In this document: one piece after another, positions 1 through 3,413 of the stretch
Layout of the letters: each line of letters begins with the position of its first letter
Position numbering within the stretch: position 1 is the first letter of the stretch
Assembly: GCA_028702535.1 (NCBI GenBank)
Contig: JAQVOR010000002.1
Location: 20,781 to 69,153 of the forward strand
Reading direction: 5' to 3'
DNA from: Bacteroidales bacterium
Lineage (GTDB): Bacteria; Bacteroidota; Bacteroidia; Bacteroidales; ML635J-15
Length of the DNA stretch: 48,373 nt
The notes under the pieces: generated by a model
Databases searched by the model: none
Told to the model about the DNA's origin: nothing
Seen by the model: only the letters and a program-made list of their open reading frames with translations
Made by a program: the position numbers and the translations under genes

Positions 1-134
1 CCCCCTAACCCCTAAGAGGGGAAAGCCAACGCTACTTCTTCTAAATATCTCTAAAATCTAAAAGGGGAATGCCAGCACTATCAGTATTGTGCGGACAGCC
101 TCCCTTCAGGGATACAGGGTGTGCGTATGGTTTT
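1..134. repeat. ~130-bp intergenic repeat, copy 1 (left boundary cut by window edge)
   Basis: ccccctaacccctaagaggggaaagccaacgctacttcttctaaatatctctaaaatctaaaaggggaatgccagcactatcagtattgtgcggacagcctcccttcagggatacagggtgtgcgtatggtttt; recurs at +196 and +789 with only a few substitutions. Confidence 0.95.
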
Positions 135-181
135 GTTGTTTTTATACATTTATTTAATTTTAATTTTAATTTTTACTGTTT

Positions 182-330
182 CTGCTTGCCTTCGCTACCC
201 CTAACCCCTAAGAGGGGAAAGCCAACGCTGCTTCTTCTAAATATCTCTAAAATCTAAAAGGGGAATGCCAGCACTATCGGTATTGTGCGGACAGCCTCCC
301 TTCAGGGATACAGGGTGTGCGTATGGTTTA
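182..330. repeat. ~150-bp intergenic repeat, copy 2
   Basis: Same sequence as copy 1, including the left extension gcttgccttcgctacc shared with copy 3. Confidence 0.95.
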
Positions 331-729
331 AGTTTTCAAAAGTTTTTTACATATTTTCTCAATTTTAATTTTCACTTCTTCAATTTTTTCTAAAACATCT
401 TTGTTACTAAACCGAATAACTGTAATACCGTAATTTTCTAAATCATTGGTTCTGGCTTTATCATACTCCTTGTTTTCTTTTATATTATGTATTTCTCCAT
501 CAACTTCTATTACTAACTTAATTGCATGACAATAAAAATCAGCTATAAAAATATTAATTGGATGTTGCTGTTTAAAACGCAAGTCCAACATTTGTTTCTT
601 TCTTAAAATATCCCATAATACCTTTTCCGCTTTTGTTGGATTTTGTCTTAACTCTTTAGCTCTCTCAAAAATAATCGGTTTTGCCCCGTAAAACATTGTT
701 CTTTCTACTGAATGATTCGGTTTTGACAT
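328..729 (-). CDS. DUF559 domain-containing protein (Vsr/REase-like endonuclease fold)
   Basis: Translation has the DUF559 signature: RAKELRQNPTKAEKVLWDILRKKQ...RFKQQHPI..FIADFYCHAIKLVIEVDGEIH...YDKARTNDLENYGITVIRF. Confidence 0.9.
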   Translation of the reverse strand: MSKPNHSVERTMFYGAKPIIFERAKELRQNPTKAEKVLWDILRKKQMLDLRFKQQHPINIFIADFYCHAIKLVIEVDGEIHNIKENKEYDKARTNDLENYGITVIRFSNKDVLEKIEEVKIKIEKICKKLLKT

Positions 730-771
730 AAATTAGTTCATTAGTTTATGATTTAGTTCAGTTTTATTGTC

Positions 772-923
772 ATCGCTTGCCTACGCTACCCCCCTAACCC
801 CTAAGAGGGGAAAGCCAACGCTACTTCTTCTAAATATCTCTAAAATCTAAAAGGGGAATGCCAGCACTATCAGTATTGTGCGGACAGCCTCCCTTCAGGG
901 ATACAGGGTGTGCGTAAGGTTTT
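772..923. repeat. ~150-bp intergenic repeat, copy 3
   Basis: cgcttgcctacgctacccccctaacccctaagagggg...cagggtgtgcgtaaggtttt; same orientation as copies 1 and 2. Confidence 0.95.
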
Positions 924-933
924 CCTCAATATT

Positions 934-1476
934 TTACAAATCACTATTCAATAATTGATAAAACAACACATCTTTATATTTTGATTTTTGGATTTTCCAT
1001 TGCTTTAGTACGCCAGAAAGTGTAAAACCGAGTTTTTCAAATAGTTTTATGCTTGCATGGTTTTCAGCATCAATATTGCACCATATTTGATTGATTACCA
1101 GAATGTTAAAGCAGTAGTTGATTATTGCTTGTATGCTTTCTTGTGCTAATCCTTGTTTTCTGTCTTCTGCATTAATCATAATTCCAATTCCTACTCGCTT
1201 ATGAAAAGGTTCAAATTCAAATAAATCAACCAATCCAACAGCTTTTTTTGTTTTTTTGTCTTCGATAATAAGACGCAACTCTTTGTTGGTGTAAATATCA
1301 TAAACTGTGTGCTCAATATGTTGTTTCAATTGCCATTTTGAAAAAGGAGATTTTGTATCGCTTACAAACCAAAAATTGGAATTGTTTTCGATAGAATATA
1401 AAAACTCAAGATCTTCGGGCTCTGGTTTTCTAAGTCTTATTGTTTCCGATTCTAATTCTGTCCAAGTTTTCGCCAT
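934..1476 (-). CDS. GNAT family N-acetyltransferase (RimJ/RimL/SpeG-like)
   Basis: ETIRLRKPEPEDLEFLYSIENN...GIGIMINAEDRKQGLAQESIQAIINYCFN...NASIKLFEKLGFTLSGVLKQW. Confidence 0.85.
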   Translation of the reverse strand: MAKTWTELESETIRLRKPEPEDLEFLYSIENNSNFWFVSDTKSPFSKWQLKQHIEHTVYDIYTNKELRLIIEDKKTKKAVGLVDLFEFEPFHKRVGIGIMINAEDRKQGLAQESIQAIINYCFNILVINQIWCNIDAENHASIKLFEKLGFTLSGVLKQWKIQKSKYKDVLFYQLLNSDL

Positions 1477-3413
1477 GATTTAAAAATAATATTAATGTCT
1501 TGTAGTATTTTGTAGTCTTTTGCATACATCATATTTAACCTTTCGATGAGTTCTGTTGAGATATTATCTTTAACAATAACACTTACGGGAGTAAAAACTC
1601 CGTTTTTAATTTTTGGTAAAAGGCTTGTGTCAGTATTTTTATCAGTACAATAAGTAACGAATGATTTACCTCCAAAAAGAATAGAAAATAGGTTTTTTAT
1701 CATTTTTCCACGCTTAGGAACAAATATTATCAAAACAGGTAGTAAAATGATAAATATAAGAGCGATAATAAAATCCAACATTCTTTTATTTCTTAGGTTT
1801 TCTGGTTTTACGATGCTATTGATGTCTATATTATAAAGTTCTCCAGTTGTATTTATCGAGTTGCTGCCTATAACAGATATTCCGTCTGGGCTGGCAATTT
1901 TATAATCTAATTTTACATTGTTGAGCTTTAACATGGTGTTAATTATCTGTTGGGATTGCAAGCTTTTTGCACAGAAAATTATCTCGTCAATCTTTTTAAT
2001 TCTAACAATTTCATCAAGTTGGTCGATTGTACCCGCAAAATATTTGTCAGAGCCTGTATTTATTGGATTTACAAAGGCACTTATTTTAATTTTTGGATTA
2101 TTATTATTTAATAAATTTACAAGTTTGGAGCTTTCTTGTTTATTACCTACGATTGCAATAAGTTTTTTACCTGGCATATTCATTTTAAAAATAGTGCGTC
2201 CAGTAAAGTGGAGTAAAAACCTTGTTAATGGTAAAACTATTGTTGTCCAGCCAGCACCTAAAAGGATTAAAGCTCTTGAAAATCTAAATTCGGCAGGCAA
2301 TAGAGAGTAGAGTACGAGTATAATAATTGCTCCGGCACCAATACCTTTAAAAATATTTTTTGTTTTTACGGGCTTGTCATATCCACCAAGAAATAGTAGA
2401 GATAATATCCATATTAAAGCATAAGCCAAAACGGCATAAATAAATAAATTCTCAGGATAAGCGTCTCCGCTTCCAAAAATATGATTAGACCATATAGGAG
2501 CAATAACTAAAAATCCTGCAATAATTACTAAAGCATCAATTATAGGAGTTATTATGCTGCGCATAAAACGATATGTTATTGCCATTGCAGCACGAATGTA
2601 TATCGCAATATTTATTAATGCACTAAAAGTTCCGGCATGTCTTTTCGAAAAGTGTTTTTTTGCAAATATTATCATCGCATTATAAAACACTAACACGTAA
2701 TTAATGCTTCCTTTTTTTGTGCTTTCTCCTTTATAGTGAATAATTGTTGTTCTAGGATAATAATAGTTTTTATAACCTGCAAGACTTATTCTGTACGACA
2801 TGTCGATATCTTCGCCATACATAAAGAAGTTTTCGTCAAGCAACCCGGTTTTATCAAGGCATTCTTTACGAAGCAGCATAAATGCTCCCGAAAGCACATC
2901 AACAACATGCGTTTCTTCTTTATCTAAATATGTTAGATGATATTTGCCAAACTTTTTGGATTTAGGGAATAATTTTGACACACCAAAAATTTTATAAAAA
3001 GCCACTTCGGGTGTTGGTAAACCACGCTTAGATTCTGGTAAAAAACGACCTTTGCCGTCAATCATTTTAACGCCCAATCCTCCTGCATCGGGATGAGAGT
3101 CCATGAAATCACACACTTTTTGTAAAGTTTTTTCTTCAATTACAGTATCAGGATTTAGCAGCAGTACATATTCTCCTTTTGATATTTTTATTGCCTGATT
3201 ATTTGCGTAGGAAAAACCGTAATTCTTTTTATTTTCGATTAAATGTACTTCAGGGAACTTCTCCTTAACCATTGAGCATGAGCCATCAACAGAGTTGTTG
3301 TCAACAACATATATCTCAGTTTCGCAATGCCTTGCAGATGCCAATACAGAGTTTAAACATTGTTCAAGAAAATGCTTAACATTATAATTTACTATAATAA
3401 CCGAAATCTTCAT
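1452..3413 (-). CDS. Family 2 glycosyltransferase fused to membrane and degenerate sugar-transferase-like C-terminal module
   Basis: N-term MKISVIIVNYNVKHFLEQCLNSVLAS...VVDNNSVDGS...LLNPDTV is GT2; C-term has TM helices, a CoA_binding_3-like segment and ENLRNKRMLDFIIALIFIILLPVLIIF...GKSFVTY...LPKIKNGVFTP. Confidence 0.85.
   Translation of the reverse strand: MKISVIIVNYNVKHFLEQCLNSVLASARHCETEIYVVDNNSVDGSCSMVKEKFPEVHLIENKKNYGFSYANNQAIKISKGEYVLLLNPDTVIEEKTLQKVCDFMDSHPDAGGLGVKMIDGKGRFLPESKRGLPTPEVAFYKIFGVSKLFPKSKKFGKYHLTYLDKEETHVVDVLSGAFMLLRKECLDKTGLLDENFFMYGEDIDMSYRISLAGYKNYYYPRTTIIHYKGESTKKGSINYVLVFYNAMIIFAKKHFSKRHAGTFSALINIAIYIRAAMAITYRFMRSIITPIIDALVIIAGFLVIAPIWSNHIFGSGDAYPENLFIYAVLAYALIWILSLLFLGGYDKPVKTKNIFKGIGAGAIIILVLYSLLPAEFRFSRALILLGAGWTTIVLPLTRFLLHFTGRTIFKMNMPGKKLIAIVGNKQESSKLVNLLNNNNPKIKISAFVNPINTGSDKYFAGTIDQLDEIVRIKKIDEIIFCAKSLQSQQIINTMLKLNNVKLDYKIASPDGISVIGSNSINTTGELYNIDINSIVKPENLRNKRMLDFIIALIFIILLPVLIIFVPKRGKMIKNLFSILFGGKSFVTYCTDKNTDTSLLPKIKNGVFTPVSVIVKDNISTELIERLNMMYAKDYKILQDINIIFKSWRKLGQN

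Follow-up and report, generated by a model that had tools for sequence, protein, structure and literature searches.

The DUF559 gene near the start of the window (by which we mean the whole stretch of 48,373 nucleotides analysed here) is likely to be one member of a widespread partnership between a nuclease and the repeats that flank its gene, in which the nuclease acts on its own repeats. The DUF559 family is widespread and has no known function. Genes of this family are associated with flanking repeats of one motif type, the repeats match the subtype of the nuclease, whole units are present or absent at compared sites, and gene-less copies of the repeats are dispersed; from this we infer that the repeats are cleaved and mobilised. 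The repeats belong, as judged from their sequence, to the BoxC/PIT/TM class of intrastrand-triplex motifs, and DUF559 seems to be the enzyme, so far missing, by which repeats of the BoxC type are moved or maintained.

The repeats and the DUF559 protein of the window

The repeats that flank DUF559 genes share a common design, formed by a C-rich arm (Y), a loop, a complementary G-rich arm (R1), a gap of 1–8 nt and a second G-rich block (R2); one such set is hereafter called a triplex-type half-site. The features of the window locus were located by repeat search (repeat copies), by motif scan (half-sites) and by Pfam, with a structure model for DUF559, as follows:

1–134, minus strand: repeat copy 1; its 5′ edge is the window border and a scaffold gap, with 100 N before it in the contig
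101–120, plus strand: half-site of copy 1 (Y-loop-R-gap-R mirror), TCCCT TC AGGGA TAC AGGGT
197–330, minus strand: repeat copy 2; its final bases overlap the DUF559 stop codon
197–217, minus strand: half-site of copy 2, read on the minus strand as CCCCT CTT AGGGG TTA GGGGT
297–316, plus strand: half-site of copy 2
328–729, minus strand: DUF559 gene, 133 amino acids, predicted Vsr/EDxHD-type PD-(D/E)XK fold (Pfam E = 2.5e-32)
788–923, minus strand: repeat copy 3, lying 5′ of the DUF559 gene and 10 bp from the GNAT stop codon
788–810, minus strand: half-site of copy 3
890–909, plus strand: half-site of copy 3
934–1476, minus strand: GNAT acetyltransferase gene, a conserved flank gene outside the unit and the anchor for the empty-site comparison

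The original prediction had described three near-identical repeats in the same orientation, the second and third of which surround the DUF559 ORF, and this was borne out: the three copies, at 1–134, 197–330 and 790–923, are direct, 134 bp long and 97–99% identical (copy 2, 97%; copy 3, 99%), with spacings of 196 and 593, and copies 2 and 3 flank the sole DUF559 gene of the genome. The DUF559 stop codon, placed by the prediction at the edge of copy 2, lies inside its last bases, and the predicted distance of about 10 bp between copy 3 and the GNAT stop codon also held. The length foreseen for the repeat (about 130 bp) stands, but the view of it as a single element is corrected, since the positions and strands of the half-sites make each 134-bp repeat a pair of inverted half-sites with the R2 tags at the outer ends. 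The five half-sites, all inside the three repeats, are the only triplex-type motifs that a motif scan with 5-bp stems found in the whole 48-kb window; their 5-bp stems fall below the 6-nt minimum of Holder et al. (PMC4666352). Further copies had been expected upstream, and the contig does carry two there, followed by a convergent HSDR_N_2 gene; as the 300 bp on each side of the N gap are 99% identical, these two copies may be an assembly duplicate and the copy number is uncertain. The 100-N scaffold gap that separates them from the window copies lies at L010:6682-6781.

A genome search found no further site of the full repeat in the 3.49-Mb genome outside this locus; half-length copies of about 40–50 bp, with 82–89% identity, occur at seven other places. 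Rfam gave no match to positions 1–3000 of the window. Single-stranded folding of the window repeat was no better than that of shuffled sequences, a result weighed neither way because the duplex-only energy models used are blind to a third strand and give it no score.

The DUF559 protein of the window matches the family (PF04480) with a Pfam score of 111.4 bits, against a gathering cut-off of 20.6. Its AlphaFold2 model (mean pLDDT 78) matches 3HRL, the gonococcal DUF559 protein NGO0050 of N. gonorrhoeae (E = 1e-7), the catalytic domain of I-Bth0305I (3R3P; E = 8.5e-5) and E. coli Vsr (1VSR; E about 0.06–0.09), in line with the Vsr-like fold that had been anticipated. The modelled protein has the core fold and the acidic/His pattern of the PD-(D/E)XK nucleases of the Vsr/EDxHD type, and five residues (E35, D64, E75, D77 and H81) are invariant across seven relatives, which is consistent with a predicted activity as a PD-(D/E)XK-type nuclease.

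DUF559 is also found inside large methylase proteins (L063:112-2526 and L064:82-2724), as a domain accompanied by a Type ISP-like specificity domain or an N6_N4 methylase, and these embedded domains have the highest DUF559 scores of the survey; such proteins are probably single-chain restriction enzymes in which DUF559 does the cleaving. On cyanobacterial plasmids (L169, L174, L176), the neighbours of DUF559 genes or domains are DUF1156/DUF499 or the BREX defence genes PglX/BrxC.

Triplex-type repeats around DUF559 genes

DUF559 loci were collected from relatives (six close ones), a public genome scan and 178 genomes of Bacteroidota. For each gene, the 400 bp upstream were compared with the 400 bp downstream and a flank match of at least 40 bits was scored as bracketing; the 85 standalone DUF559 genes, mostly from Bacteroidota and with some from CPR, were set against 141 other ORFs of 90–220 amino acids from the same loci. 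Matching flank repeats were found for 52/85 DUF559 genes and for 2/141 control ORFs (Fisher p = 7e-26), and at a threshold of at least 100 bits the counts were 24 and 0; the enrichment check suggested with the original prediction thus came out in its favour. The flanking copies are direct, as in the window, or inverted, and their sequence is particular to each locus; about a third of the DUF559 loci are without flank repeats. DUF559 genes at contig ends are expected if flank repeats break assemblies, so that surveys of draft genomes would undercount the pairing. On contigs of three genomes (G043, G052 and G054), the contig end is no more than about 150 bp away from several DUF559 genes.

Two CPR (Nomurabacteria) loci are also bracketed. 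In a plasmid collection, a DUF559 locus of N. gonorrhoeae lies between 114-bp direct repeats (89%), a Deinococcus gene lies between 56-bp inverted repeats (95%) and a Picosynechococcus gene has similar flanks; this set is small and not random, and the breadth beyond Bacteroidota consists of the two CPR loci and nine plasmid-collection records.

The same comparison bears on the idea that DUF559 is a restriction or defence nuclease whose repeats reflect recombination in defence islands. The insertion of DUF559 into Type ISP-like methylase proteins, its proximity to BREX genes on cyanobacterial plasmids and the HSDR_N_2 gene that adjoins the window unit all speak for it; however, where units were looked at closely, the neighbours were housekeeping genes and no methylase was present, and neighbouring genes in the same loci are hardly ever bracketed (the 2/141 above), and we regard this explanation as quite unlikely.

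A strict form of the motif (stem of at least 6, mirror match of at least 0.85, within 400 bp of the gene) is present near 41/79 DUF559 genes, as against 0/75 control genes and 0/79 dinucleotide-shuffled flanks, and is absent from the remaining 38/79 loci. It occurs on both sides of the gene for 15/79 DUF559 genes and 0/75 controls. In asymmetric motifs, a mirror of R1 accounts better for R2 in 54 cases and a direct copy in 10. Opposite G of R1, R2 has G in 239/240 cases; opposite A, it has T in 51, A in 47 and C in 2, of which the informative part is the even split between T and A and not the rarity of other bases, since the match score itself permits T opposite A. At the level of sequence, a mirror block that places A or T opposite A marks a purine-motif intrastrand triplex and not an alternative hairpin.

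A role for the repeats as transcription terminators, or as mRNA-stabilising hairpins of small convergent genes, would account for G/C-rich hairpins at gene ends and for the overlap of at least one copy with a stop codon. It is nevertheless highly improbable: the motifs also occur upstream of the gene, the third block with its mirror repeat plays no role in a terminator, and neighbour genes of similar size are without motifs. A plain terminator reading had been dropped, with 0 terminator-like sites at window positions 1–1500 (0.9 in shuffles).

BoxC repeats have been known in E. coli since the 1990s. The BoxC/PIT/TM class is represented by 23 copies in E. coli MG1655, including five inverted pairs, and extends to more than 260 genomes; no mobility genes were found near the motifs, variability is raised at such motifs in E. 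coli with no enzyme named, and the E. coli motif was shown to fold as a triplex in vitro (Holder et al., 2015, PMC4666352).

The ycjD gene of MG1655 (b1289) is a DUF559 gene, and the gap between ycjD and fabI contains a BoxC copy, CCCTCGCCCCTCTGGGGAGAGGGTTAGGGTGAGGGG, whose sequence is the same as that of entries 19 and 22 in Table 1 of Holder et al. (PMC4666352). Since about 18 sites among 4,300 genes would put a BoxC next to roughly 1% of genes, the single case of ycjD is suggestive only. The stretch that contains ycjD and its BoxC (L197:2480-3420) is a presence/absence polymorphism, most of it being lacking from about 2,060/5,395 E. coli genomes, and in three inspected E. coli genomes (L198, L199, L200) efflux-operon genes replace ycjD in the sapF-fabI interval. 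Immediately upstream of the annotated ycjD start, and overlapping it, is a long inverted repeat, CACCTCATTCTGACAAAAGATTAAATCTTGTCAGAATGAGGTG (L197:2480-3420).

Subtype matching, shared sites and gene-less copies

The genus of one surveyed genome, G226, has the strict motif at 37/54 of its DUF559 loci. Within this one genus, and at non-orthologous sites, similarity between DUF559 proteins goes with similarity between their motifs (Mantel rho 0.709, reached in 0/2000 permutations; 593 pairs). Proteins of the DKKQY type are accompanied by the loop TTTTC in several species, and those of the HNL type by CCCCTCC...GGGGTGGTT. The covariation is weak when all families are taken together (rho 0.058), presumably because motifs saturate over such distances.

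One intergenic site of the same genus was compared in 20 species. A DUF559 gene of type A is present in 3/20, with repeat A in 3/3 and repeat B in none; a gene of type B, about 40% identical to A, is present in 6/20, with repeat B in 6/6 and repeat A in none. In the other 11/20 there is neither a gene nor repeat A or B, and four of these species have a gene-less pair or a copy of a third repeat. Unit A is absent from close relatives of G226 whose left flanks are 94–96% identical. The remaining intergenic content, beyond the unit, also differs between close species at this site, which fits replacement templated by repair as well as it fits insertion.

For the window's own unit, orthologous sites that are empty were found in three relatives (G010, G012 and G003), so that the empty-site comparison called for earlier also gave sites without the unit. 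In G010, where the flanking genes are 87–88% identical, DUF559 is absent and one partial repeat directly follows HSDR_N_2; in G012 and G003 there is neither DUF559 nor repeat. Beside the leftover half-repeat of G010, the 3′ end of HSDR_N_2 is present a second time in truncated form (L164:5117-5201).

The DUF559-flanking repeats of 15 genomes were then searched for in their own genomes, giving 27–52 matches in five of the 15 and 3–17 in the others. Most of the additional copies in G226 form inverted pairs, 30–200 bp apart and with no gene between them; these pairs share their outer ends, ACCCCACC...GGTGGGGT, with the gene-bearing unit and have unrelated spacers. No target-site duplication was apparent at ten inverted pairs inspected by eye. 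By analogy, the gene-less inverted pairs resemble REPINs. Among the 178 Bacteroidota genomes, DUF559 is present in 27/35 genomes with the consensus CCTCACCCC-n-CCCTCTCC and in 70/143 without it (p = 0.004), and in 8/35 genomes the consensus motif is present and DUF559 was not detected.

Genomes of the latter kind are what would be expected if DUF559 were a passive passenger, caught between repeats that are moved or recombined by another enzyme or by spontaneous instability. The swapping of whole intergenic contents at the site compared in the G226 genus, and the raised variability of the motifs in E. coli, for which no enzyme was named (Holder et al., 2015, PMC4666352), can be read in the same way. 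A passenger, however, should not covary with the repeat, whereas the repeat sequence tracks the DUF559 subtype both at non-orthologous sites and at the one shared site; the strict motif on both sides of DUF559 genes (15/79), unseen in the 75 control genes, also argues against it, and we consider a passenger unlikely.

A true homing element is a possibility to which we give more weight, though it is still doubtful. DUF559 would then cut gene-less repeat sites and its gene would be copied in by double-strand-break repair, the repeats being immobile alone. The homing endonuclease I-Bth0305I is the nearest characterised relative by fold, the repeat-gene-repeat layout offers ready homology arms, target-site duplications were not apparent at the ten inverted pairs, the gene-less orthologous site of G010 carries a partial repeat, and the wholesale intergenic replacement at the compared site resembles co-conversion. 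Against this, gene-less inverted pairs far outnumber genes, which implies that the repeats also spread alone; moreover, homing enzymes normally cut only alleles without the intron or gene, and full repeats on the flanks would leave the target intact. Pure homing is in any case a special case of a nuclease acting on repeats, and the two readings overlap.

A proposed nuclease–repeat partnership and its relation to known systems

For the partnership proposed here, in which DUF559 acts on its own repeats, the following mechanism can be envisaged. Repeats of the BoxC type could form an intrastrand triplex, in which a mirror repeat supplies the third strand to a G/C-rich hairpin; the nuclease would recognise its own repeat, probably in a folded or single-stranded form, and would nick or cut it at or near the tag. 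Cutting would spread either the repeat alone, in the manner of a REPIN, or the repeat-gene-repeat unit as a whole; the copying would be templated by repair, with homology provided by the repeats or by flanking genes, or would follow a REP-like route. Such a mechanism would lie between REP/RAYT and homing. A bolder form of the proposal, which we put forward tentatively and at slightly less than even chances, is that DUF559 proteins are structure-specific nucleases for intrastrand-triplex DNA and the cognate mobilisers of BoxC-type repeats across bacteria, with the folded triplex rather than a hairpin tag as substrate, and form a class apart from the HUH REPtrons.

The REP/RAYT systems and their REPINs offer the closest parallels in layout: a nuclease gene in single copy between tagged palindromic repeats, dispersed gene-less inverted pairs, subtype matching, an intergenic location and the absence of target-site duplication. 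This layout is found for the DUF559 group; in the genome that contains the window, dispersal is seen for half-repeats only. The enzyme there is an HUH (Y1) tyrosine transposase and the tag is GTAG, whereas here a Vsr/EDxHD-type DUF559 protein is paired with a tag formed by a G/C block that mirrors the stem, a triplex motif. As neither the HUH enzyme nor the GTAG tag is found, we class the DUF559 system as a variant kind of repeat-nuclease system and not as RAYT. With BoxC/PIT/TM, the DUF559-flanking repeats share the C-G-G blocks, the mirror third strand, the size and the inverted pairs; Holder et al. (PMC4666352) did not mention DUF559, and the nuclease partner is proposed here. The open-access literature, which was the scope of our search (subscription papers and preprints lay outside it), yielded no report linking DUF559 with these repeats.

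The EDxHD homing endonucleases, I-Bth0305I among them, provide the closest solved fold outside DUF559 and are likewise encoded by small mobile nuclease genes; as for homing endonucleases, gene-less alleles exist at the compared sites. The DUF559 unit differs in that it is not in an intron and is flanked by its own repeats, which also occur alone. Unit A of the G226 genus and the Deinococcus plasmid gene recall MITEs and IS elements in lying inside inverted repeats, unit A having gene-less miniatures elsewhere; unlike these elements, DUF559 units are without a DDE or other transposase, often have direct flank copies and show no apparent target-site duplication. E. coli YcjD and N. gonorrhoeae NGO0050 are DUF559 proteins from a different phylum; as noted above, ycjD has a BoxC as neighbour and a gonococcal DUF559 locus has direct repeats on both sides.

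Taken as a whole, the proposal from which this work started, that the nuclease is packaged with its own intergenic repeat in a layout like that of REP/RAYT or of a homing unit, is strongly supported by the statistics, the empty sites and the covariation. Three points go beyond it: the repeats belong to an orphan class already described, the pairing extends to several phyla, and in G010 an orthologous site without the gene keeps a partial repeat. The link between BoxC and DUF559 gives a testable role both to repeats without a known mechanism of spread and to a protein family of unknown function, and the question is answerable in a standard laboratory strain, as E. coli K-12 has ycjD and 23 BoxC copies. 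If the link is true, the way of life of REP/RAYT would have arisen independently with an unrelated nuclease.
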